Of a stretch of 64,000 nucleotides of DNA, positions 46,575 through 59,764 are shown one piece after another (within the stretch, counting starts at the first letter, position 1; every line of letters starts with the position of its first letter). The DNA is taken from contig NZ_OY762512.1 of assembly GCF_963665995.1 (NCBI RefSeq), forward strand, positions 3,658,001-3,722,000, given 5' to 3'. The stretch comes from Pleurocapsa sp. FMAR1. Lineage in GTDB: Bacteria; Cyanobacteriota; Cyanobacteriia; Cyanobacteriales; Xenococcaceae. The translations under genes and the position numbers were made by a program. The notes under the pieces were generated by a model, which was given only the letters and a program-made list of their open reading frames with translations, did not search any database and was not told where the DNA came from.

Positions 46575-49500
46575 TTAACCTTCTGAAAAATCTTGGGACT
46601 CAAACCTAAGTGTATGGCAATTTTCTCTAATTGTGCGGATCACATTTTCTGGTATACCGCTTTCTACTTCAGCCTCTATTTCTAAAGTAACTTTTACTTT
46701 TGCGCCGACCAGACTAGTTAGATGTTGTAAGATTTCATCAGCTATTTGCGAAGCATCTCTGTTGATTCGTTCCGAATCTAATGCTACAGAGCCATAAAAA
46801 CGTTTTTTAGGCTGTTGTGGTTCAACGATAATATTTGTTGAAGAATTAGATTTTAGCAAGCTACTGTTATTAGAGGAATGAGCATTAGTTTTATAATTAT
46901 CTCTAGCACTTTGAACTGCATTGCCATTTCCAATATTTTTATTAGAAGTATACTCTGATTTTTGTCTTTCTTCTTCTTCAAATTTGAATTGGGCTAATGC
47001 TACTTCTGGTTTAACTAAAAAATCAGAACTGCTGAAATTGGGAACAATTGGCTGACCAGCTGTCAATCCTAAATATTTTCCTGTGGCTTCATCAAAACCA
47101 TTGGCATAAGCAAAGTTTTCTTGCCAAGAACATAAATCTTTTCCCACTCCATCTGCGATCGCATCTAATAAAACCTGTTCGTTTTTGAGTCGCGGTAAAT
47201 AGAGGTAATTAGTTAGATATTTCCAGAGGGTTTTAAGGTCGATATGATTGTCATTTTTCCAGACATAATCATTGAGAATTTCTAGGGTCAGACGAGCAGG
47301 AGCATAGGTAGTAATTAGGTGTTCTTCATGACCTAATTTACGACTAGCCTGTAGGATAGGGGAATCTTTGACTGAAAGACGATATTCTTCCCATTCAAGG
47401 TCGCCTGTAGGTTCTGGTTGATCTGGAACTAGTAACCATTGATAGGTATCTTGCAATGACATTTTAACTGTCTTATCTGCGTCTTTTAATTTCTTCTCAG
47501 CCTGATTTTTCTGTGAGCCATTAAGGTTAAGATTTTTTTTGCCTGAATCGGCGACTATTGATTCCCAGGCTAAATATTGATTTACCAATCTCACCAAGTT
47601 TTCTTGTTTACCTTGATCGGGGGCTAGGAAAACTAGAAGGTTTTTACAATAGCGAGGCGCAGTACCTTTAGTATCGAGTATTTGTTTGGCGGACTTTAGG
47701 GCATCACTATCTTTGGCCTTGCTGCTATGGGTTAGGTTAGGCTGGAGTAACACCAATCTAACTCCCATTGTTGATTCATCGGGGATATCAGAAGATGAAT
47801 TAGGTGCAATGTGAACACCAGAAAAATCTCCCATCTCTCTATCTAGCTTGAGCCGTCTAATAATTTCATCCCAAGTTTGGTCTTCTCTATACTGGGTAGC
47901 GCGGTCAACAGCAGTACGGGTAACGTTGGGTTGAGTATCAATCCAGTATCTCTCACTACTATCGACATAAAGATAGGTCGCTTGGTTAGTCAGTCTGCGT
48001 AGAGCATCACCAAAGGTCGCAACGTTTTCTCCTGGTTGGGTGCAACCCAATTTAATTCGGCGGATATCTAAGCCTTTGTTGGCAGCTTTTTGTAGTGGTG
48101 CTGAACCCATATAAATAGTTCGAGTTACCCGACGGCAAGCAGAATAGCGTCCTAAATTAGAATGTTGACGGTCGAGATCGACAGGCAGAGAGTTAGTACC
48201 GTCTACATCTTTATCGATGATCGGTCGCCATTGGTCGTCTAGATAACGAGTTAATTCTGACTGTACTTGAGAATCAGCCATCGGTATATTGGCAGGAAGA
48301 ATCATCAGATTTTTGTCGTTTTCTTGCCAGAGATAACTAATGACCTTAGCCATTAAGCGCAATACTCCACGAGTGCGTTGGAATTTGTCTAAACTAGACC
48401 AATCTTCGTATAGACGTTCAAATAGTTCGGGATGAATCGGATAGGCATCTGTAATTCTTCTTTCGTAATCTTTCTCACGACATTCTGCGGGGAATTCAGT
48501 TTTTTGGTCGCGATACATCTGACTAAATGCTCGAATTACAGTATCACGGGCAGTAAATAAACTAGGATCGATAATATCTTTGAATAGACGACGGCGGACA
48601 ATATGAAAACTTTCTTCGGCGGAGGCAGGCTGCCAAGGAGACTCTACCCGACCAATAGCATTTTTGAGACGGTTCAAAGCTTCAAAACCTTTATCACCAC
48701 CAATCTCAATATCTGAAGCGGGAATACTAACTACCAGTAAAGTTTTGTCAGCATTTTTAGCTGATTCACTTATGGTTTGAGCAAAGGTAAAGTGGGTATC
48801 AAAATCTCCAGCGGGAAGATCCTTTTCATAATGTAGTTGACGGGCATAAGCGACCCATTCATCAATGAGGATTAGACAAGGTGAATATCGGTTGAATAGG
48901 TCTTTGAGCTTATCACCAGGATTGGTAGAGTTTTCATCTGCCTCTGCTAGCATTTCATAGCCTTCTTTGCCCCCAAGTTGCCAAGCAATTTCTCCCCAGA
49001 GAGTTTTAACTACCGTGCCATCTTTTTTGCGATCGGGAGTACCAGGATCGATTTTATTTCCTACCAGAACAGCAGTGTTAACATCTTTGGGCGGATTATC
49101 AATTCCAGTTTCCGTGAAAATAGTTTCACATCCAGGTAAATCTTTGGCAGAAACTCCAAAACACAAATGGTACAGAGCTAACATGGCGTGGGTTTTACCA
49201 CCACCAAAGTTAGTTTGTAGTTCAATTACGGGGTCGCCCCCTTTGCCACTGAGACGAATTAAAGCGTTAGCGAGTAAATCTTTAAGTCCTTCAGTAAGAT
49301 AGGTGCGGTGAAAGAACTCTGTAGGATCGCGATATTCATCGGCGCAGTTTTTATCATCTAGATATACCTGCCATAAATCGGCTGCGAATTCGGCTTGTTG
49401 AAAGCGTCCAGAAGCTACATCATCGTGAGGGGTTACAATTTCTCGCCAGGGTTTTAAACCGCCTTGAGGATCGCTTTCAATTACCACATTAGTAGCCTTA

Positions 49501-49958
49501 CGTTTTTCATGGCGGGCTTGTTCTTCAAAGCGCAGACGTAATAGTTCTTGTTTCTGTTTTTCAACCGTATCCGCTTGGGGTGCAGAAATGGAAGAGAGTA
49601 ATCTAGCAGTACTATCTAAAGCGCGGTAGGCATCATCTGTAGAGAAATTTTTACCGTGCGCCCAATCGTTACGAACTGTTTTAAGTTCCCCAACCAAATT
49701 TCTTTCGGCGTGTCCTAAAGTTTTTTTGAAGACATTATGCCATTCACCAAAAAATACGTTAATTAGATCGGTTACATCCTGTTGTAAGCGTTCGGCAGTA
49801 GTGCGCTTGAGATTGCGGTCTTCATATAAATGACTGAGAGCATGGTTTTCCCAATGTTCGTTATAAGCAGAACGCATTTCCCTTTCTACGAAGGGGTATA
49901 AGCCTTCTTTTAATATGTCTAATGCTCTGCCTACTCTTTCTTTATTGGTAATAGCCAT
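46575..49958 (-). CDS. HEPN(Swt1)-DUF499 ATPase, DISARM-related antiphage protein
   Basis: The N-terminal ~110 residues are a HEPN domain of the Swt1 type (RVGRALDILKEGLYPFVERE ... VRNDWAHGKNFS), with the R-x4-H ribonuclease motif at R96-H101. DUF499 follows: an ATPase with Walker A NFGGGKTH (250-257) and Walker B CLILIDEWV (361-369). A C-terminal region has a Ser/Asn-rich linker (about 1015-1060) and a small domain (VSLVGAKVKVTLEIEAEVE-like). Such proteins are found with a DUF1156 methyltransferase and a helicase in antiphage islands, as here. The 1127-residue length is normal. The HEPN could be an RNase that acts when phage is sensed, which is an inference. Confidence 0.85.
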   Translation of the reverse strand: MAITNKERVGRALDILKEGLYPFVEREMRSAYNEHWENHALSHLYEDRNLKRTTAERLQQDVTDLINVFFGEWHNVFKKTLGHAERNLVGELKTVRNDWAHGKNFSTDDAYRALDSTARLLSSISAPQADTVEKQKQELLRLRFEEQARHEKRKATNVVIESDPQGGLKPWREIVTPHDDVASGRFQQAEFAADLWQVYLDDKNCADEYRDPTEFFHRTYLTEGLKDLLANALIRLSGKGGDPVIELQTNFGGGKTHAMLALYHLCFGVSAKDLPGCETIFTETGIDNPPKDVNTAVLVGNKIDPGTPDRKKDGTVVKTLWGEIAWQLGGKEGYEMLAEADENSTNPGDKLKDLFNRYSPCLILIDEWVAYARQLHYEKDLPAGDFDTHFTFAQTISESAKNADKTLLVVSIPASDIEIGGDKGFEALNRLKNAIGRVESPWQPASAEESFHIVRRRLFKDIIDPSLFTARDTVIRAFSQMYRDQKTEFPAECREKDYERRITDAYPIHPELFERLYEDWSSLDKFQRTRGVLRLMAKVISYLWQENDKNLMILPANIPMADSQVQSELTRYLDDQWRPIIDKDVDGTNSLPVDLDRQHSNLGRYSACRRVTRTIYMGSAPLQKAANKGLDIRRIKLGCTQPGENVATFGDALRRLTNQATYLYVDSSERYWIDTQPNVTRTAVDRATQYREDQTWDEIIRRLKLDREMGDFSGVHIAPNSSSDIPDESTMGVRLVLLQPNLTHSSKAKDSDALKSAKQILDTKGTAPRYCKNLLVFLAPDQGKQENLVRLVNQYLAWESIVADSGKKNLNLNGSQKNQAEKKLKDADKTVKMSLQDTYQWLLVPDQPEPTGDLEWEEYRLSVKDSPILQASRKLGHEEHLITTYAPARLTLEILNDYVWKNDNHIDLKTLWKYLTNYLYLPRLKNEQVLLDAIADGVGKDLCSWQENFAYANGFDEATGKYLGLTAGQPIVPNFSSSDFLVKPEVALAQFKFEEEERQKSEYTSNKNIGNGNAVQSARDNYKTNAHSSNNSSLLKSNSSTNIIVEPQQPKKRFYGSVALDSERINRDASQIADEILQHLTSLVGAKVKVTLEIEAEVESGIPENVIRTIRENCHTLRFESQDFSEG

Positions 49959-50084: not shown

Positions 50085-50384
50085 ATGAATCAAATTCACA
50101 AAGATACTTCTGCATCAAATAGCCAGGAGTTTGAACAGGCAATTAGCGCATTATCGAAGATAACTTCCCGTTCTCCAGAAGAGATTAAGCCACATTTAGA
50201 AAGGTTTTTATCAGAATTGAGTTCTAAACCTGACGTTAGCAAAAACCATTTCTTCGATTTGGCTACTGATGATGAATGGATGTCCGCGTTTCGCGACTGG
50301 TCGGAAAGCCATAAAGCCAAAAAGTTACCTGTATTGAGTGAAGCAGCAATGAGTAGAGAAAGTATGTATTCCGATCGCTGGTAA
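50085..50384 (+). CDS. Probable antitoxin of a PIN-domain toxin
   Basis: The 99-residue helical protein (FEQAISALSKITSRSPEEIK ... FRDWSESHKAKKLPVLSEA) has no DNA-binding motif I can name. Its stop codon overlaps the start of the PIN toxin gene (TAATG), so translation is probably coupled. It has the size and position of a VapB-type antitoxin. It runs opposite to the defence genes on both sides. Confidence 0.6.
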   Translation: MNQIHKDTSASNSQEFEQAISALSKITSRSPEEIKPHLERFLSELSSKPDVSKNHFFDLATDDEWMSAFRDWSESHKAKKLPVLSEAAMSRESMYSDRW

Positions 50385-50845
50385 TGTCCTACCTTTTAGA
50401 TACTAATATTCTCCTCAGAACCATAGTAACCGACGATCCAAATTATCACATTACTATGGAAGCGATCGCATCTTTGAGAAGATCGGGAGAACGTTTATTT
50501 GTTGCTCCACAAAATTTGATTGAATTATGGAATGTAGCGACTCGTCCCGCAGCTAAAAATGGATTAGGGATTTCTCCTTTAGAAGCAGCAGCAGAAATAG
50601 CACGTTTAAAAGAGTTATTTATTTTGCTACCCGATACAGAGCAAATTTATCCTGAGTGGGAACGGTTGGTAAAAACTTATGAAGTCAAAGGAGTAAATGT
50701 TCACGATACTCGTTTGGTGGCATTCATGCTAGTTCATCGGCTGAGTCATATTCTTACTTTTAACGTTAAAGATTTTCGACGGTTCAGCACGGAAATCACT
50801 TCAGTTAGTCCAAAGGAGGTCGGATCGATAGATGAATCTGAATAA
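50384..50845 (+). CDS. vapC: PIN-domain ribonuclease toxin (VapC type)
   Basis: The PIN fold is clear: the first acid in SYLLDTNILLRTIV, the second in PQNLIELWNVATRP, and the last acids in GVNVHDTRLVAFM and LTFNVKDFRRF. VapC toxins cut specific tRNA or rRNA sites; the target here is not known. It is 153 residues and follows its presumed antitoxin with an overlap of one base. Confidence 0.87.
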   Translation: MSYLLDTNILLRTIVTDDPNYHITMEAIASLRRSGERLFVAPQNLIELWNVATRPAAKNGLGISPLEAAAEIARLKELFILLPDTEQIYPEWERLVKTYEVKGVNVHDTRLVAFMLVHRLSHILTFNVKDFRRFSTEITSVSPKEVGSIDESE

Positions 50846-51149: not shown

Positions 51150-54100
51150 TTATACTACTAATTCTCCCTGTACGACTGTTTCTAGCTGTTGTTCCATTGC
51201 AGCTAGACGAGATATTTCTGACCAGGAAGTCACTAAGCTGTTATAGGAAATTGCCTCCTGTGTCCAACCTTGGCGATCGCAAATTACATATAGGCGATAA
51301 GCTAAATCTCGACAGACTTCCCCTTTGTCTCCTAATTGAGCCAATAGTATTGCTGCACCAGTTTCTCCTTGTTTATCGAGGGTTTGAATTAGGTGTTGGG
51401 TAGCTTCCCAGTCGGGAGTGCGGTTATCTTTTGCTGGATTCCAGTTTTCGGGTAATTCTTCTCGTTGTAGCAGTCTGACTTTACCGTTTTTAGCTAGCAG
51501 AATTCCTGCTTCTTCTAAGCCTTTGATACTGGTATTTTTAGCTTTAGAAAGGGTTTCCGCATCGCCGTATTGTCCTTCTTCAAATTGATATTGTTCAAAC
51601 CAAGTCAAAGCCCAACGGGTATCGGGGTCAAATTCTCCTTCCTGTTCGTTCAAGAATTCATCGATATAGGAGTTGATTATTTGTAAGGCGGTACGGACGC
51701 GCATGGGATTACCATCTGCTTCTAATACCTTGCTGTAGCGAGAGAAGACAGACATTCCCAATCCGATACTTGCTTGAGCCAAATCTACAGGAGCGATATT
51801 ACCTTGTTGTAGGGTTGCTAAATCGGTGGGAAATTCTTTTTGGAGTTGTTTGAGGAATTGACGACGGGTAGCGGAAGGAGCATCATCTGGGCGGAGACGA
51901 CAAATTAATACTATTGAAGAAGCTAGAGCATTAGAACCTTGACCTCTCATTCTATTGGCTAGTTCTGTACGCATTGGTAATGTACCAGTAATCGAAAAAC
52001 CAGCCCTCATCAAACCTTCAAGCATGGTTTCCCAACCAGTTGAGGCTATATTTTGACTAGTACCGTTTTGTATTGCTTCACTTTCGGTTTGTTTAAAAGC
52101 GTAATAGACAGAAAAAGGGTAGCGATTGTGAGCCGTTTCTCTTACTTGAGTAAAAACCTTTTCTAATCCATCTTCAAAAAACTTTTGTGCCTTTTTGCGA
52201 CTGCCATGACGATATTGATCTGCTACTAATTCTGCTTCTTTGGGAGTAGCCAATGTAGTAAAAAGTTCGGGATGAATTTTATTTAACGAACGTCGCATCC
52301 AAACATAGAAAAAGTCGGACAAATCTGAATAAGGAACAGCATCATAGTATGGTGGGTCTGTGGAGACTATTATTGGCTTTAAGTGATTACTAGAAATATT
52401 TGTCGCATCTGCCTGTCGAACTAATCCCTTAGAATTGCAGGATGCAATTTCAGTAACTTTGGCAATCCAATTAGTCGCTCCGTTAAAGTTACCAGAAGAA
52501 TTACTAAATGGATTTGCTTCTACAAAATCCCAAACCATAGGAATTGATTGTCTGGTAAAAACATGGCTAACATTATCTCTGCTGTTATCCCAAGCTACAA
52601 TATCAGCCCATTTATCGGCACATTTACTGTTAGCAAGTCCTAAATAAGTTGCTACGGTATCACTATAAGCCGTTGCGTTTGTTCCTCCTCCACTAAGCGA
52701 TAAACCATCATTAGCTATTCCAGCAGCGATCGCATCTTGTTTGATTTTCTTTCTAACTTCACTAACTAAATTACTGAAAGTATTTAGAGCAACCAATTGC
52801 CGCTCGGTAAAAAGATCGCAATGTCTAATCATTCCATAACGAGGTGTCCCCATATACTGAGGATGGGTAGATAATTCTGTTTCAGGCTTCCATTCTGGCT
52901 TTGCTGAAGCAGCAATCTTCTCATGTTCGTCATTAGGAGGTAGATAAATTCTTCCTCTGTCGCCTTCAGCTACAATTGCCATCAATTGAGCATCCATTCG
53001 TCCTGCTTTTCCTTCGCTACGGATATAGTCGAGATTGTTAGGAGTAGCACAAGCAAGACATACAGTACCCTTGCGGCTAGTTGTTCCTTCAATTGGTTCA
53101 CCTTCACCAGTTTTAACTTCAAACTTAATTACTGGCGGACTTTGACTGTTATCAATAATTGGTTCTACCCAAGCCTCTTTACCTTTTTTCTTAGAAAGCT
53201 GAAAAGAACGAACTAAAGGCATTTGACAACCACAAGCAGGATTGGGGCATTTAACCGTTCTCGCCCACAACCAAGCAATTACGGTAGCTTCTTCTGACCT
53301 CACCCTAGCCCTCTCCTGGGAGGAGAGGGAACAATTTTCAGGGGATGAGGACAAAGCACTCCGTATAGTATCTAATGCTGATAAAAGATCGTTTTCTACC
53401 TGTTTGGCTGTTAAACGAACAAAACGCAAACCCAATGATTCAAGTAAAACCTGACGCTGCCGATCTAATTCTTGCTGTTCTGGCAATTCGTGAACACTAC
53501 CATCAACTTCTACAATTAAACCCTCAACATCACAATAAAAATCAACTACAAACTGACCAATAGGGTGCTGACGACGAAATTTTCTTCCTTCCAACTTACG
53601 ATTTCTCAAAGCTTCCCAGAGAATAGCCTCACTTGCTGTTTGTTCTCTGCGTAACTTGCGAGCAATTTCCGTCATCTTTTTCTGCAACTCAGGGGAAACC
53701 TCACATTTTTTCTTCTCCCCCTCTCTTAATAGGAGAGGGGGCTGGGGGGTGAGGTAAACCTTCGGATAAAGATGACCGATACGTTTTTCAGCCTCATCTC
53801 GCATCCACTTACCGTAATAGCGCACATCTTCCGCTAGTCCCTGCGCTCCTCGCCATTGATTAATGTCTTTGGTTTTACGCGCTTCTGGATTGACTGGTGG
53901 TTTATCTTTAAACTTAGGGGGAATTTCTATCAAAGCTTTGGTAATCAATACAGCCACAGGGTTCAAATCGCTACCATGAGCCTCAATGCCCAATCTTTGA
54001 GCTTCCAAAGGTATCGAACCGCCACCACAGAAAGGATCGTAAACTGGTGGAGCGTATTCTTGTAAATAGTTTCTGACTGCTTCGGGTTCGGTAGGTGGTT

Positions 54101-54509
54101 CGTGATTATTATCCCATGCCAAACAACGAGCAATCTCTTTCTGTGCTGCTTCAATGATGGGCGAGATGCCCCTTTCATTGGTTTTAATATCATCCCAGGA
54201 AACCAAGCCTCGTACTACCTGCTTGGACTTTCCACTTTTTTCTTCTATCTCGATCTTCCCAATCAGATCATGTAGTCGCTGTCTTTCTACTTGTTGTTCC
54301 TCTTCGGTGGGGAACTTGTCTGGATGTGCTGAAGGATCGTCTACCAATGAAGCAAATAATACCGCCCGACAAGCTGCTAGAGGTCGTCTTGCCCACCACA
54401 AATGAAGCGTAGAAGGATGTCCGTGCCGAATCGATTTTTCCCTGGCTGACTCTTGGTTTATTGCCTCAAGAGGCATGGAAACTTCGATTAGTTTTTTGCG
54501 GTAGGTCAT
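51150..54509 (-). CDS. DUF1156 DNA methyltransferase with an internal DUF559 nuclease insertion
   Basis: Residues (from ATG 54509): an N-terminal DUF1156 block (MPLEAINQESAREKSIRHGH, STLHLWWARRPLAACRAVLF), the SAM motif VYDPFCGGGSIPLEAQ (about 156-171), and the catalytic IIVSTDPPYYDAVPYSDL near 710. Between KRIGHLYPKV and EEATVIAWLWARTVKCPNPA, adjacent in ordinary members, about 155 residues are inserted: a DUF559 (Vsr-like) nuclease. The remaining protein, with the CPNPACGC zinc motif, continues undisturbed, so the methyltransferase may still work. I prefer ATG 54509 over 54545 since the family begins MTYRKKLIEVSMPL. It is the methylase of a DISARM-related locus. Confidence 0.85.
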   Translation of the reverse strand: MTYRKKLIEVSMPLEAINQESAREKSIRHGHPSTLHLWWARRPLAACRAVLFASLVDDPSAHPDKFPTEEEQQVERQRLHDLIGKIEIEEKSGKSKQVVRGLVSWDDIKTNERGISPIIEAAQKEIARCLAWDNNHEPPTEPEAVRNYLQEYAPPVYDPFCGGGSIPLEAQRLGIEAHGSDLNPVAVLITKALIEIPPKFKDKPPVNPEARKTKDINQWRGAQGLAEDVRYYGKWMRDEAEKRIGHLYPKVYLTPQPPLLLREGEKKKCEVSPELQKKMTEIARKLRREQTASEAILWEALRNRKLEGRKFRRQHPIGQFVVDFYCDVEGLIVEVDGSVHELPEQQELDRQRQVLLESLGLRFVRLTAKQVENDLLSALDTIRSALSSSPENCSLSSQERARVRSEEATVIAWLWARTVKCPNPACGCQMPLVRSFQLSKKKGKEAWVEPIIDNSQSPPVIKFEVKTGEGEPIEGTTSRKGTVCLACATPNNLDYIRSEGKAGRMDAQLMAIVAEGDRGRIYLPPNDEHEKIAASAKPEWKPETELSTHPQYMGTPRYGMIRHCDLFTERQLVALNTFSNLVSEVRKKIKQDAIAAGIANDGLSLSGGGTNATAYSDTVATYLGLANSKCADKWADIVAWDNSRDNVSHVFTRQSIPMVWDFVEANPFSNSSGNFNGATNWIAKVTEIASCNSKGLVRQADATNISSNHLKPIIVSTDPPYYDAVPYSDLSDFFYVWMRRSLNKIHPELFTTLATPKEAELVADQYRHGSRKKAQKFFEDGLEKVFTQVRETAHNRYPFSVYYAFKQTESEAIQNGTSQNIASTGWETMLEGLMRAGFSITGTLPMRTELANRMRGQGSNALASSIVLICRLRPDDAPSATRRQFLKQLQKEFPTDLATLQQGNIAPVDLAQASIGLGMSVFSRYSKVLEADGNPMRVRTALQIINSYIDEFLNEQEGEFDPDTRWALTWFEQYQFEEGQYGDAETLSKAKNTSIKGLEEAGILLAKNGKVRLLQREELPENWNPAKDNRTPDWEATQHLIQTLDKQGETGAAILLAQLGDKGEVCRDLAYRLYVICDRQGWTQEAISYNSLVTSWSEISRLAAMEQQLETVVQGELVV
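53298..53756 (-). mobile_element. In-frame mobile-like insertion carrying a DUF559 nuclease
   Basis: The inserted segment (about 456 bp) begins with CTCACCCCCCAGCCCCCTCT and ends with AGAGGGCTAGGGTGAGG, which are imperfect inverted repeats of each other. Inside is a nuclease domain of the Vsr-related DUF559 type: KLRREQTASEAILWEALRNR, KFRRQHPIGQFVVDFYC and LIVEVDGSVHELPEQ, with the catalytic acids in VVDFYC and VEVDG. The whole length is a multiple of three and open in the host frame. The boundaries at 53298 and 53756 are good to within a few bases. Confidence 0.75.
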
Positions 54510-54657
54510 GAAGTTGGCAGATAGAACAACCAACTGTCCTAGCATTAAGATTGCTGAAAATGCCTCAGTTTATACTAGGAAGATACACTTTGGTAGCGCA
54601 TTTGTATCTCACTAAAATCCTCATAAAAACACATTCAGGTGACACAGGTTGTGCTGC

Positions 54658-54884: not shown

Positions 54885-55250
54885 TTAATTTTCGCTCTCC
54901 AAATTAAATAATTGCTGAAGCGATTTTTGGACGCGATCGCGATCGCCTGTTGCTAATTTACCAATCTTTTTGATTACTAAAGCATCATCTAAGGTGAATA
55001 ATTTCATTCTGACAATCGATTTGGCTTTTAGTCCTGCACTTTTTAAATCTGAAATCGGCACATCTAAAGCCCAGGGAGAATGAGAAGCCGTAGTAATCAT
55101 TGCCATGACACTTTTCTTTATTGATTTATTAAATGCCGTAGCATCGGAAATCACTAAAGCAGGACGTTTTTTAGTAGCCGTACCGTCTGTAAAAGGAAAA
55201 GGTACAACTACTACATAGTATTGTTTATAAGTCACGATAAGCTTTCTCAT
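54885..55250 (-). CDS. mazF: MazF/PemK-type mRNA interferase
   Basis: The 121-residue toxin has the family start YYVVVVPFPFTDGTATKKRP and the motif PALVISDATAFN, followed by ITTASHSPWALDVPIS. It would cut mRNA independently of the ribosome. I start at the Met of MRKLIVTYKQYY (55250); an upstream Met exists at 55271. It overlaps the antitoxin gene 3' end by about 26 bases, an arrangement typical of such operons. Confidence 0.88.
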   Translation of the reverse strand: MRKLIVTYKQYYVVVVPFPFTDGTATKKRPALVISDATAFNKSIKKSVMAMITTASHSPWALDVPISDLKSAGLKAKSIVRMKLFTLDDALVIKKIGKLATGDRDRVQKSLQQLFNLESEN

Positions 55251-55467
55251 CAGCCTCAGACGACCATTCACCCAGAGTAGCGGACACTGACTCTAGGTAT
55301 TCCCAATCTAGAGGAGATAGTTTTTTCAGAACTACCTTGTCATCTTCTATTTCAAAGATAATGCGATCGCCTTGTTCGATTTCTAGTTTTTTTCTTACTG
55401 CTTGTGGAATAGTCGCTTGATACTTTTGAGTTAGTTTAGAGGTTAATTTGCTTTTTGCGATCGACAT
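55225..55467 (-). CDS. mazE: AbrB/MazE-type antitoxin
   Basis: The protein has an AbrB-fold N-terminal half: KLTQKYQATIPQAVRKKLEI and GDRIIFEIEDDKVVLKK, the classic DNA-binding swapped hairpin. The acidic C-terminus (SATLGEWSSEADEKAYRDL) would bind MazF. It is 80 residues and precedes the toxin gene in the same direction. Confidence 0.9.
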   Translation of the reverse strand: MSIAKSKLTSKLTQKYQATIPQAVRKKLEIEQGDRIIFEIEDDKVVLKKLSPLDWEYLESVSATLGEWSSEADEKAYRDL

Positions 55468-55570: not shown

Positions 55571-55840
55571 ATGAGCAATACTTTAACACCAGCTAGGGCA
55601 ATATCACCAAAACGCATTTTACAACGAGAATTAGATGCTCGTGCTTGGACACAAAAAGATTTAGCCGAAATGACCAATCGTCCAGCACAAACAATTAACG
55701 AAATTATCAAAGGAACAAAACAAATTACTCCAGAGACAGCTAGAGAATTATCGGCAGCGTTGGAAACTACTGTGGAATTTTGGATTAATTTGGAAACTAA
55801 TTATCGTTTAAATCTTGCAAAGAACGTTAACAGACTCTAA
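55571..55840 (+). CDS. higA: HigA-type helix-turn-helix antitoxin
   Basis: An XRE-type helix-turn-helix protein of 89 residues: ILQRELDARAWTQKDLAEMT and RPAQTINEIIKGTKQITPET are the two helices of the HTH, followed by the LSAALETTVEFWINLETNYR block typical of HigA. The usual HigB toxin gene is absent directly upstream, where the divergent mazE gene lies. It may be an orphan antitoxin or a regulator that acts on the neighbouring genes. An RBS-like GGAAGGGGAG lies before the start. Confidence 0.85.
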   Translation: MSNTLTPARAISPKRILQRELDARAWTQKDLAEMTNRPAQTINEIIKGTKQITPETARELSAALETTVEFWINLETNYRLNLAKNVNRL

Positions 55841-56211: not shown

Positions 56212-58953
56212 TTAGCAAGGTTTTTGACTTCGTTCTTTTAATTCTTTCAAATTATAATTAACGCTCGTCACGCCAAAATCAGGCTCTTTTTGAAATGGTT
56301 GTCGGAGATAATAAACGTTAGAAGCATCTCCTTCAGTAAATTCTTCAGAAGACGAAACTTCCACCACTGCCAGAATATAGTTTTCAGGTTTATTCAAAGC
56401 AGTAATAATTTCATTCTTGGTAACTGTAACTGTCTCTGCACCTTCAATCCTGCCCTTGACCTCGATAAATCTCAACGCTTCTGTTTCGGAAATGCGTGAC
56501 TCAATATCGTAACCACATTTAAGGCTGCTTACATCTTTAGGTTCATAACCTAGTTTTTTCTCTGCTGCTATAACTGCATTCATAGCAAACATTTCTACCC
56601 GTTTGGTTTCTTTAGCAAACATTTGAGCTTTAGGTTGGCTTTTACCCTGTAGTTTGTGTAGCAAGCCCATTGGTATAACTAATGCTCCTCCTACTACCAC
56701 AGGAGGTAAGGGAGATAAGCGTCTTTCTTGGTTTAATTCATAGATACGTCGGGCTAATCTAGCTTGTAGTTCATCTGCTCTGACTCTAGCTTTAGCCGAG
56801 TTGATTTTAGCGTTGGTTTTACCCGCTTCTTCCTGATATTTTAATTCGGCTGCACGATAATCCCAGTAGTTTATTTCCTTAGTAAGTCTATCTTTTACTG
56901 CTACTAAAGTTTTATCAATTAGTTCTTCTTTGTGCTGCTTGACCTCTTGTAGATGTTGGGGAACTATCTGGGAAATGGCATATTTGGTTGCTTCGGCTTC
57001 AATATCGGTTGGTAGATTAGATTCTTCTAAGAAGGTTTCTATAACTGTTTGTTCGTCTTCAAGTAAAGGTCGATAGTCGAGATAGGGAGCATAACCAGCA
57101 TTACGAATGGTTGTTTCTTTATCGTCAGTCGAGGACATTAAATCGTCCAAGATAATTTCTACATACTGCATTCGGCGAGAAACAATCCTTCGTTTCCCCG
57201 ATAGATCGGTTTTAGCATCTTGGATTGAATGCTGGAGCGTAATTAAGATTCTTACTTCTTCACTGGGGTCATTTTCATCTATTAAAATACTTCCCCGCTT
57301 CAGCACATCCCGATGACGCTCTGAGACTAGATCGATGGTGGCATCTAATAAAGGATGACCAGGACAGATAAAGGCAGCTAAAGGTTTACCTAGAACACTA
57401 ATTAACTCCTTATCAAAACAAATCCGTTCGTAGCAGGTTAAAATCGGCTCTCTCGTGCCAATTTGACGACCGCGATTGCGAATAATGGCAGGAACGTTAG
57501 TAATTTGATAGCGTTTGGGTTCTCTTTGACGAATTACTCCTCCTAAATGTTGGAAGGCTTCAATAAAGAAAGAGCCGATAAAATGGGGTTGCAGCTTTCT
57601 AGCTTCGGCTCGTTCTATCTCCTCGCGAATACGCTGAATTTTGGTAATATCCATCGCATTCCTTGCTAAAACCTTTTCGGAAAGCAGGTCTTGAAGGCGA
57701 TCGCGATTTAAACGATTAGTGACTATTTGTTCTAGTTTGGCTCTAGTTTCTGGTAAATCTCCATAGCGAATGGCTTCAATTAGTAATTGTCGTAACTCCA
57801 CACCATCAATCGCTTGACCTAGAACATCAAACACTTTACCTCCCAATGCTTTTTGTTCTACTTCTAGTTTCTTGAGTAGCTTGAGATATACGTCCCCTTC
57901 CCTAGTTTCTGCTGCTAGAAGATTCCAGAGGTGACAGACTTCGGTTTGTCCGATACGATGAATCCGTCCAAACCTTTGCTCTAAGCGGTTGGGATTCCAG
58001 GGGAGGTCATAATTGACCATCAGGTGCGCCCGTTGTAGGTTAATCCCTTCCCCCGCAGCATCGGTGGCAATTAACACCTGAATGTCTGGGTCTTGAGTAA
58101 AGGCTTCTTGTGCTTTACGCCGTTCTTCTCTCCCCGAACCGCCACTGATGGTAACTACTGTTTCTTGTTTGCCAATCAAATTACGAATGCGAGCGGCTAA
58201 ATAGTTGAGAGTGTCACGATGTTCGGTAAAGATAACCAGTTTGCGCCGATGTCCCCTAACATCGAATAATTCGGCTTCATTTTGCAGGATGCGACTCAGT
58301 TCTTCCCACTTACGATCCATGCCACTAAGCTTGACCTGTAGGGCTATTTTTTCTAGTTTTTGTAGTAATTCTATTTCTACCTTGAGTTCTGCTATGGTTC
58401 GCGCAGCAGTGGCTCGGTCAACTAATTCTTCCTCAGTAGTTTCTCGTTCATCATTGAATAGGTCATCTTCAAAGTCTGACCAATCTTCTTCTTTGACTCC
58501 TGGTAAGTTTTGCCAGTCTAACTCTACTTCTTGTCCTCTCTTGACTAATTCTTCTTCTTTGAGCCGTTTTTGCAGTCTTTCGTGCCTTCTCTTCAAAGAT
58601 TGATAAATAGCTTCGGGAGAAGAGGCTAATCGACGTTGGAGAATAGTTAGGGCAAATCCTACCGTGCCTTTTCTACCATTGTTACTCAAGGCATCGGCGC
58701 GGTTAAATTCTTCCCGCACATATTCGGTGACTGCTGAATATAACTTCGCTTCTAAATCTGACAGATGATACTCGACGGTATAAGCTCGGCGTTCGGGGAA
58801 TAGAGGTTTGCCATCGAACTTGAGCAAGTCCTCTTTTACCAATCTCCGCATCAGGTCAGAGGTATCTACGGTATGTACTCCATCGCGGAATTTACCCTCA
58901 AAGCGCGCCATCCAGTAATGCCATAAATAGCTGGAAGTCGGCTTCTTTGCCAT
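56212..58953 (-). CDS. C-terminal part of SNF2-type helicase with DUF3883-like domain
   Basis: Helicase domain 2 of superfamily 2: KLVIFTEHRDTLNYLAARI, LIATDAAGEGINLQRAH and QRFGRIHRIGQTEV (about 326-339). A long coiled-coil-rich middle follows, and the C-terminus (GYDIESRISETEALRFIEVK with VTVTKNEI) is DUF3883-like, PD-(D/E)xK-related. The start at 58953 is not natural, as the real open frame is continuous with helicase domain 1 from 59764 except for a single-base shift near 58905-58915. Together the two pieces make a helicase of about 1180 residues of the DrmD-like type. Confidence 0.8.
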   Translation of the reverse strand: MAKKPTSSYLWHYWMARFEGKFRDGVHTVDTSDLMRRLVKEDLLKFDGKPLFPERRAYTVEYHLSDLEAKLYSAVTEYVREEFNRADALSNNGRKGTVGFALTILQRRLASSPEAIYQSLKRRHERLQKRLKEEELVKRGQEVELDWQNLPGVKEEDWSDFEDDLFNDERETTEEELVDRATAARTIAELKVEIELLQKLEKIALQVKLSGMDRKWEELSRILQNEAELFDVRGHRRKLVIFTEHRDTLNYLAARIRNLIGKQETVVTISGGSGREERRKAQEAFTQDPDIQVLIATDAAGEGINLQRAHLMVNYDLPWNPNRLEQRFGRIHRIGQTEVCHLWNLLAAETREGDVYLKLLKKLEVEQKALGGKVFDVLGQAIDGVELRQLLIEAIRYGDLPETRAKLEQIVTNRLNRDRLQDLLSEKVLARNAMDITKIQRIREEIERAEARKLQPHFIGSFFIEAFQHLGGVIRQREPKRYQITNVPAIIRNRGRQIGTREPILTCYERICFDKELISVLGKPLAAFICPGHPLLDATIDLVSERHRDVLKRGSILIDENDPSEEVRILITLQHSIQDAKTDLSGKRRIVSRRMQYVEIILDDLMSSTDDKETTIRNAGYAPYLDYRPLLEDEQTVIETFLEESNLPTDIEAEATKYAISQIVPQHLQEVKQHKEELIDKTLVAVKDRLTKEINYWDYRAAELKYQEEAGKTNAKINSAKARVRADELQARLARRIYELNQERRLSPLPPVVVGGALVIPMGLLHKLQGKSQPKAQMFAKETKRVEMFAMNAVIAAEKKLGYEPKDVSSLKCGYDIESRISETEALRFIEVKGRIEGAETVTVTKNEIITALNKPENYILAVVEVSSSEEFTEGDASNVYYLRQPFQKEPDFGVTSVNYNLKELKERSQKPC

Positions 58954-59764
58954 TGTGAGGCGTAGCAGTTAGCAACAGAAAATGGCGAGTCAAACTGGAT
59001 AACAGTTTGCCTAACTTGTAGCGTTTGGTTTCTCTCCTTTCACCACCATAAAAAGAAGCAGACATCTTATGTGCTTCATCACAAACAATGACATCCCAAT
59101 CAGTCTGTTGTAGTTTTGCTTGGAGGTCTTCATTACGACTCAGTTTATCCAAACGAGCAATACACAAAGGCATCTCAGTAAAAGCATTTCCGCTACGGGC
59201 TGCTTCAATGCGATCGTTCGTGAGAATATCAAAAGGTAGATGAAATCGTCGATCTAGTTCATCTTGCCATTGGGTAGCCAGAGAACCTGGACAGACAATC
59301 AGACAGCGATTTAAGTCTCCCCGAATGCGTAATTCAGAAATTAGCAGTCCTGTCATAATAGTTTTTCCCGCCCCAGGATCGTCTGCTAGTAAGAAGCGCA
59401 GTGGTTGTCGGGGTAACATATCGCCGTAAACTGCTGTAATTTGGTGCGGCAAAGGCTCGACTAAAGAAGTATGCACCGCCAGCATGGGGTCAAAAAGATG
59501 AGCTAACTGAATGCGGTGAGCTTCGCTGACTAAACGTAATAATCTGCCATCGCCATTAAAACTCCAAGGCAAAGATGAAGTGACAATTTCTAGTTCATGC
59601 TCGCGATCGCGGTAGATTAATTCACTATCAATACTGCCATTAGCTTCTTTATAAATTAGTTCAATAACATCTGAACCATACCATTTTGCCTCAATGACAG
59701 TAATCAATTGATTTGGCAATACTCCATTGACCGTTGCGCCTTTAGTTAAATCCTCTAACCTCAT
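58898..59764 (-). CDS. N-terminal part of the DrmD-like helicase (frameshifted)
   Basis: The N-terminal helicase domain: MRLEDLTKGATVNGVLPNQL, Walker A DPGAGKT (129-135), the DEAH box VIVCDEAHK (229-232) and TATPHNGKE (266-274). After FQLFMALLDG it runs out of frame as AL*. The other frame has RFEGKFRDGVHTVDTSD immediately at that point, where intact homologues go on directly. One base seems to be missing around GGATGGCGCGCTTTGAGGG. Either the gene is a recent pseudogene or the base is a sequencing error. It would be the first gene of the island operon on the minus strand. Confidence 0.8.
   Translation of the reverse strand: MRLEDLTKGATVNGVLPNQLITVIEAKWYGSDVIELIYKEANGSIDSELIYRDREHELEIVTSSLPWSFNGDGRLLRLVSEAHRIQLAHLFDPMLAVHTSLVEPLPHQITAVYGDMLPRQPLRFLLADDPGAGKTIMTGLLISELRIRGDLNRCLIVCPGSLATQWQDELDRRFHLPFDILTNDRIEAARSGNAFTEMPLCIARLDKLSRNEDLQAKLQQTDWDVIVCDEAHKMSASFYGGERRETKRYKLGKLLSSLTRHFLLLTATPHNGKEADFQLFMALLDGAL

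Follow-up and report, generated by a model that had tools for sequence, protein, structure and literature searches.

The window, that is, the whole 64,000-nucleotide stretch of DNA analysed here, contains a gene for a DUF1156 DNA methyltransferase that is interrupted in frame by a palindrome-framed DUF559 nuclease (Table 1). We consider it probable that this segment is one copy of a widespread homing-type selfish element, composed of REPIN-like, C/T-rich palindromes and their own DUF559 nuclease, that is carried in frame without splicing. The initial annotation had read the segment as a mobile element able to insert into genes without destroying them, and three observations support this: copies lie in frame in genes and phyla that are not related, near-identical PriA genes differ in being filled or empty, and in some pairs the insert is more alike than its host.

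Table 1. Positions of the insert, its parts and the surrounding hma genes in the window
Feature	Position	Strand	Basis
DUF1156 DNA methyltransferase (host gene), matched best by HmaB of the candidate Hma defence system	51150..54545	-	Pfam, PADLOC
Net in-frame insert, 468 nt (156 codons), between conserved ...LYPKV and ATVIAW...	53289..53756	-	homologue comparison
Element proper, outer CCTCAC to outer GTGAGG	53298..53754	-	
Palindromic unit, protein N-terminal side (hairpin 53717-53741)	53699..53754	.	folding
Palindromic unit, protein C-terminal side (hairpin 53309-53329)	53298..53350	.	folding
DUF559 nuclease domain, PD-(D/E)XK / Vsr / EDxHD-like fold	53352..53678	-	Pfam, predicted structure
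Neighbour hmaC, AAA+ ATPase	46575..49958	-	PADLOC
Neighbour hmaA, SNF2/DEAD helicase, two overlapping ORFs in different frames	56212..59764	-	ORF list, PADLOC

About 155 residues of DUF559 sequence had been described as interrupting the methyltransferase in frame, and this holds: the net insert is 156 codons long and has no stop. The start and end proposed for the element (53298-53756) are correct within a few bases when set against it, and the near-reverse-complementary ends do lie at the termini of the segment. Each of the end sequences quoted in the initial annotation occurs once in the window (53734-53753 and 53298-53314). Their joint inverted-repeat score of 27 was matched by none of 2000 window pairs with the same spacing and, when the bases of the ends were shuffled 2000 times, was reached once. 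Each end is itself a palindromic unit, in which an outer CCTCAC/GTGAGG-type stem surrounds an inner CCCTCTCC/GGAGAGGG-type hairpin; the outer stem at the 53298 end has five pairs only. The fold z values of the two hairpins were -2.72 and -2.33. In the relative G011 (locus L026), the flank matching the C-terminal unit is a doublet of two hairpins. An intein was rejected, in keeping with the earlier view that no intein splicing motif is evident, as neither the Pfam matches (to E 1) nor the NCBIfam matches (to E 1e-5) included an intein family. A group I or group II intron was rejected as well, since Rfam gave two matches on positions 52800-54300, both below their gathering scores and neither of them an intron.

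The nuclease matches DUF559 (PF04480) with 102.3 bits against a gathering score of 20.6. Among 50 aligned relatives, E43, D72, E83 and H89 are invariant and D85 is nearly so; on the pattern of the family, E43, D72, E83 and D85 are putative catalytic acidic residues. The predicted model has a mean pLDDT of 81.5, with values of 80-97 for ten-residue blocks of the core and of 37-57 for the palindrome-encoded ends. Only three fold matches in the PDB had E values of 0.001 or less: 3hrl, a putative endonuclease-like protein, ranked first, and the other two were chains of I-Bth0305I, a homing endonuclease and the best characterised match, with a TM-score of 0.78-0.80 on the target. The next matches were mitochondrial ribosomal proteins, and Vsr came at rank 8 (E 0.031). 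Passages of PMC3943268 describe I-Bth0305I as an EDxHD homing enzyme.

A search for inverted repeats around other DUF559 genes found them repeatedly. DUF559 occurs in 21 of the 27 genomes from the family of the window, and a strict hairpin rule placed a hairpin within 250 nt of the gene at 15 of the 20 full-length loci, on both sides in seven. Eight weak or fragmentary matches, all lacking hairpins (0/8), were excluded from this core of 20. PIN-domain genes from the same 27 genomes, used as controls, had a hairpin at 1 of 30 loci and at none on both sides. A scan of species genomes yielded at least 557 confirmed relatives, the best 80 of which were kept; as a single peptide pattern was used, this set is biased to relatives of the cyanobacterial DUF559. 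It is largely independent of the family loci, with two apparent duplicates (L144/L023 and L195/L018) kept in. Full far flanks were available for 64 of the 80 loci, 16 being omitted for short flanks. At these 64 loci from many phyla, all among the best 80 of at least 557, a hairpin was found within 200 nt in 52 cases and on both sides in 26, compared with 1 of 64 and none at a distance of 1200 nt; the inverted-repeat score was at least 30 in 34 cases near the gene and in one far away. It should be noted that the far flanks frequently lie inside genes, which makes the PIN loci the better control. In a separate pattern search, the pattern CCCCCTAAATCCCCC is identical when read backwards, so that its built-in control is void.

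With all three sets of loci pooled, 105 of 130 had a hairpin within 250 nt. By phylum, this was the case for Chloroflexota (20/21), Cyanobacteria (34/42), Melainabacteria (26/30), Patescibacteria (5/5), others (8/9) and only 12 of 23 Bacteroidota loci, with phyla assigned by us and 'Melainabacteria' being our reading of family f31. The 5' arm was at least 80% pyrimidine in 181 of 201 hairpins and purine-rich in one. The inverted doublet as a repeated unit, a hallmark of REPIN-type elements, was observed at an HmaB locus described below (L042) and in the flanks of L015 and L026. Both the anatomy of the insert and the association of palindromes with the flanks of the nuclease gene are firm.

The type of palindrome goes with the clade of the nuclease. 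Within the family, three nuclease groups are accompanied by three stems, CCCCCCA...TGGGGGG (A), CCCCTCTCC...GGAGAGGGG (B) and CCCCCTT...AAGGGGG (C). Among the 130 loci, palindrome A was present at 25 of 27 clade A loci and 1 of 103 others, palindrome C at 4 of 6 clade C loci and 1 of 124 others, and palindrome B at 36 of 97 loci belonging to neither clade and 1 of 33 in clades A and C; the motifs of clades A and C were defined after inspection of the family loci. One of the clade A cases is a Thermomicrobiales genome (L202). In the 27 genomes, whole-genome palindrome counts tracked the matching clade only (p 0.0009, 0.0098 and 0.0032), the six off-diagonal tests all gave p > 0.5, and 0 of 100000 permutations were as high, relatedness being ignored throughout. 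After the removal of four copies per carrier, A was still significant (p 0.003) and B (p 0.175) and C (p 0.12) were not; the association of B and C survived the removal of two. Nuclease identity and stem similarity showed no correlation over all pairs (rho 0.063, with 61 of 300 within-phylum permutations as high) or between phyla (rho -0.081, with 229 of 300 as high), and the claim of matching therefore rests on the clades.

Results for another nuclease suggest that the arrangement of palindrome and nuclease is not unique to DUF559. Nucleases of PF13366, the GxxExxY family, had matches in 72 of the phylum's 386 genomes. Among 30 such loci (L259-L288), 28 had full flanks; inverted repeats of their own lay beside the gene at 27 of these 28 and far away at none, the sole miss being the window's own genome. 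The repeats of L264 and L266 read NHKGTKDTK, the kind of peptide that L045, L046 and L050 show at their HmaB loop. A distance of 0.1 to 0.7 kb separates the GxxExxY match from the HmaB match in four genomes (G238, G382, G120 and G037).

These results bear on the possibility, which we regard as unlikely, that the palindromes are moved by a different enzyme, such as a RAYT/TnpA-REP-like tyrosine transposase, or by host recombination, with DUF559 as a passenger between two copies. In its favour, palindromes are far more numerous than nuclease genes in the 27 genomes, and passages of PMC3116915 report REPINs and RAYTs in the cyanobacterium Nostoc punctiforme. Against it, one would not expect a passenger to follow the palindrome type clade by clade or to adjoin palindromes across phyla, and a second nuclease family has flanking repeats of its own.

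Stop-to-stop frames of at least 250 aa holding DUF559 were found at 15 of the 80 species loci (best 80 of at least 557) and at 11 of the 30 loci of a separate best-match set, and Pfam recognised host domains in 9 of the 10 that were run from the former and in 10 of the 10 run from the latter. Both Pfam and NCBIfam identified PyrF (L170), riboflavin synthase (L192), UvrC (L204), PriA (L078) and IspE (L098) as hosts. Pfam only identified MetH (L200), Type ISP enzymes (L136, L201), HsdR (L137), an Eco57I-like methylase (L178), an amidohydrolase (L209), PriA (L075, L081), a radical SAM protein (L080), an M14 peptidase (L085) and GHMP kinases taken as IspE (L074, L088, L091, and L092 after an RsmA-like part). 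The nuclease is at the protein end rather than internal in L209, L080 and L091. Alignment to solved structures showed that the PyrF insert (L170) lies between two host stretches that follow directly on each other in the chain, and that the riboflavin synthase (L192) has two separate inserts, one of them nuclease-free. Most species-set loci (best 80 of at least 557) have the nuclease in a short frame of its own. In the same set, the nearest palindrome was inside the open frame of the nuclease in 20 of 49 cases upstream, 22 of 47 downstream and 10 of 32 on both sides, and stop avoidance was modest (5.51 open frames of 6 versus 5.21 after shuffling); readiness for in-frame insertion is thus not universal. 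Two DUF559 stretches occur in the single GHMP-kinase (IspE-like) reading frame of L074. In three Bacteroidota loci (L209, L143, L169), DUF559 is near the N-terminus of a long frame, and the ends of the three frames look alike.

The host gene in the window is a stop-free ORF of 1131 aa. Pfam assigns its residues 24-92 to DUF1156 (E 2.1e-31) and its residues 290-398 to DUF559 (E 1.7e-29). It matches the PADLOC HmaB model with an E value of 0; the best stretch covers aa 414-1120 (profile positions 259 to 958 of 967), and its onset at aa 414 is close to the end of the insert. All of hmaA, hmaB and hmaC are present, although not as an intact set, given that hmaA is in two frames. The two hmaA ORFs overlap at 58898-58953 and match consecutive parts of one HmaA model, so hmaA is probably frameshifted or affected by a sequencing error. 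With hmaA split in this way, the Hma system may be inactive here. Between the hma genes are a PIN-domain gene (50384-50845), a PemK/MazF-like and MazE-like pair (54885-55271, 55225-55467) and an HTH gene (55571-55840).

The same site was compared among relatives. The N-terminal part of the host was searched in the 386 genomes and matched in 76, many of the matches being weak or partial. Of 30 HmaB loci retrieved, 29 were inspected, and 16 of them had a readable loop motif. DUF559 is at the HmaB loop in 3 of these 16 genes, namely that of the window and those of L043 and L047, whose genomes belong to the window's class and to other families. The nuclease is thus not a conserved part of most of these DUF1156 homologues, whereas such conservation would have spoken against mobility, and DUF559 as a native part of HmaB was rejected on this count and because the best PADLOC stretch resumes after the insert. 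At the same spot, L042 carries a nuclease-free doublet in frame (tail, hairpin, spacer, hairpin, tail). A different repeat (NHGGTEDTE and the like) is found at the loop in L045, L046 and L050, yet another in L051, and none of these in L044, L048, L049 and L052 to L056. The HmaB loop may hold inserts of both repeat families, the DUF559 type and the GxxExxY type. A fourth DUF559 case, G011 from the window's own family, sits in a broken copy of the host gene. Other in-frame repeats also enlarge the same or neighbouring loops, as with EERREKREDRREGE units in L052 and NKNHGDTEDTE units in L045 for HmaB, and with EEEQRARGQED units in L217 for PriA.

PriA allowed presence and absence to be followed among close relatives. 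All but one of the 191 genomes of family f31 gave a PriA match (190 of 191); 30 loci were read, plus nine (L240-L248) of 18 further stretches. Genera g94, g101, g105 and g116 each contain both filled and empty forms, so that, as for homing elements, the same site is occupied in orthologues and empty alleles occur in close relatives. The filled gene of G338 and the empty ones of G366 and G113 have flanks about 98% identical, which gain and loss fit alike. Only a palindrome remnant is present in G119, whose near relative G467 is filled (host C-part pS 0.08), and in G129, which is near the filled G123 and G362 (0.14 and 0.11).

Divergence was compared in 78 pairs from 13 filled PriA genes. In 7 of the 78 pairs the insert had a deficit of synonymous differences relative to the host at p < 1e-3 (uncorrected), and in none was the reverse seen; the other 71 showed no deficit at this level. 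Two pairs were extreme (p 1e-17 and 1e-18): G032-G153, with a pS of 0.59 in the host (143/241) and 0.11 in the insert (10/96), and G078-G157, with 0.62 (150/242) and 0.12 (13/105). In G078-G157, low divergence continues for about 10 codons into the host sequence on the left, the pattern expected from homing with a short conversion tract. For the window's element and G011, dS was 0.90 and 1.36 in the host and 0.39 in the insert; for L043 and L047, the values were 1.96 and 1.59 and 0.77. The dN/dS of the insert was 0.09-0.33 in the reported pairs, indicating purifying selection.

The initial annotation had added that the insertion may fuse a nuclease to a defence methyltransferase. As judged from the sequence, a fusion protein is encoded and may be made as such, and to that extent the proposal stands; its defensive sense is the part that we would change, as the evidence favours a selfish passenger and, with hmaA in two frames, the Hma system may not work here. 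That a Vsr-like nuclease and a methyltransferase form a functional fusion kept for defence or repair seems very unlikely to us. In its favour are the purifying selection on the insert, the several hosts that are restriction-modification proteins, and the Caulobacter DUF559 protein VsrA, which passages of PMC12907096 link functionally to a cytosine methyltransferase. Against it, the hosts also include PriA, IspE, PyrF, riboflavin synthase and MetH, few readable HmaB genes carry the insert at the site, and its presence varies among close relatives. An ordinary domain fusion by chance recombination, with terminators or common repeats as the palindromes, would draw on the frequent occurrence of hairpins near small intergenic genes but is extremely improbable in view of the PIN control genes (1/30), on which terminators were rejected, the strand asymmetry of the hairpins and the in-frame insertions with empty sites.

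For the homing-type element that we favour, the following course can be proposed. We infer that DUF559 drives the movement, and we would place its cut site, with the palindromes as a possible substrate, as follows. The nuclease, made from its own frame or within the host protein, would cut or nick an allele without it, either at a host-gene site or at a palindrome of its own type that lacks the nuclease. With the filled copy as the repair template, palindromes and nuclease would then enter the site by homing, and a little flanking host sequence would be converted too. The palindromes would seldom add stops and, in the one model, are predicted to encode disordered linkers, and the nuclease would form a compact domain; genes with tolerant loops (HmaB, PriA, IspE, PyrF, riboflavin synthase, UvrC, MetH) could for these reasons keep their frame. 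Copies might later shed the nuclease to become paired or single palindromes, or vanish leaving a scar, and such remnants or scars may be open to re-invasion.

Relatives occur across many phyla, and some lie within housekeeping genes that are conserved; this points to a form of selfish DNA, so far unrecognised, that spreads while leaving the recipient gene unbroken. A broader proposition, to which we give an even chance, is that there is a general class of bacterial selfish elements in which a small nuclease of PD-(D/E)XK fold is paired with palindromes of its own that permit read-through, and can thus home in frame and without splicing into protein-coding genes, among them housekeeping genes. 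DUF559 with C/T-rich palindromes and GxxExxY with its own repeats would be two independent families of this class, and many orphan bacterial palindromic repeats would be nuclease-free remnants. If true, this would provide an enzyme and a way of spreading for bacterial palindromic repeats that have neither, explain the scatter of a common domain of unknown function over unrelated proteins, and mean that homing elements can inhabit conserved genes without an intron or intein. DUF559 and 'PQPPLLLREGE'-like stretches in annotated enzymes may accordingly be insertions, not host domains, and tolerated in-frame insertion may serve protein engineering. Among the open-access titles and abstract openings listed, for some topics a fraction of all matches, we found no description of palindromes around DUF559 or GxxExxY genes; the cyanobacterial literature does mention very small mobile repeated elements.

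Palindromic DNA is also present in frame in protein-coding genes in the case of the Rickettsia palindromic elements, which the insert resembles in this regard; those elements to our knowledge carry no nuclease, whereas in the present case nuclease and palindrome type correspond. The element is neither a REPIN/RAYT system, in which another enzyme stands beside the repeats, nor an intron or intein, none of which was found, but resembles in its working a mixture of REPIN and homing element. With I-Bth0305I, the closest characterised fold, it shares occupation of the same site in orthologues, mosaic presence and an insert younger than its host in some pairs; unlike homing of that type, it has no detected group I intron or intein, is encoded in frame in the host protein and is framed by palindromes that also exist alone. 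VsrA contains the same Pfam domain, DUF559, and Vsr is a weaker fold match, but passages of PMC12907096 discuss VsrA in terms of mismatch repair, and the main text of that paper never uses the stem 'palindrom'.

As in REPIN/RAYT systems (REPtrons), the palindromes are short and often form inverted doublets, non-autonomous copies occur elsewhere, several types exist per genome, each with its own enzyme, and repeats can lie inside genes (passages of PMC3116915 and PMC3733652). The adjoining gene differs, being a PD-(D/E)XK/EDxHD-like nuclease instead of an HUH tyrosine transposase, and so do the C/T-rich stems, which were set apart from the GTAG and CGTC families by reading only. DUF559 is furthermore multicopy in some genomes, with up to eight matches, and RAYTs are described in passages of PMC3116915 as single-copy. 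At one clade A locus (L001), the nuclease gene seemingly lies between neighbouring doublets and not inside one, which counts against our preferred reading. Beside this gene, in the same genome (C1:4935461-4937374), there is, from position 1470 of L001 on, a tandem array of nuclease-free palindrome pairs that has a period of about 150-160 nt and in which one pair end matches 13 times.
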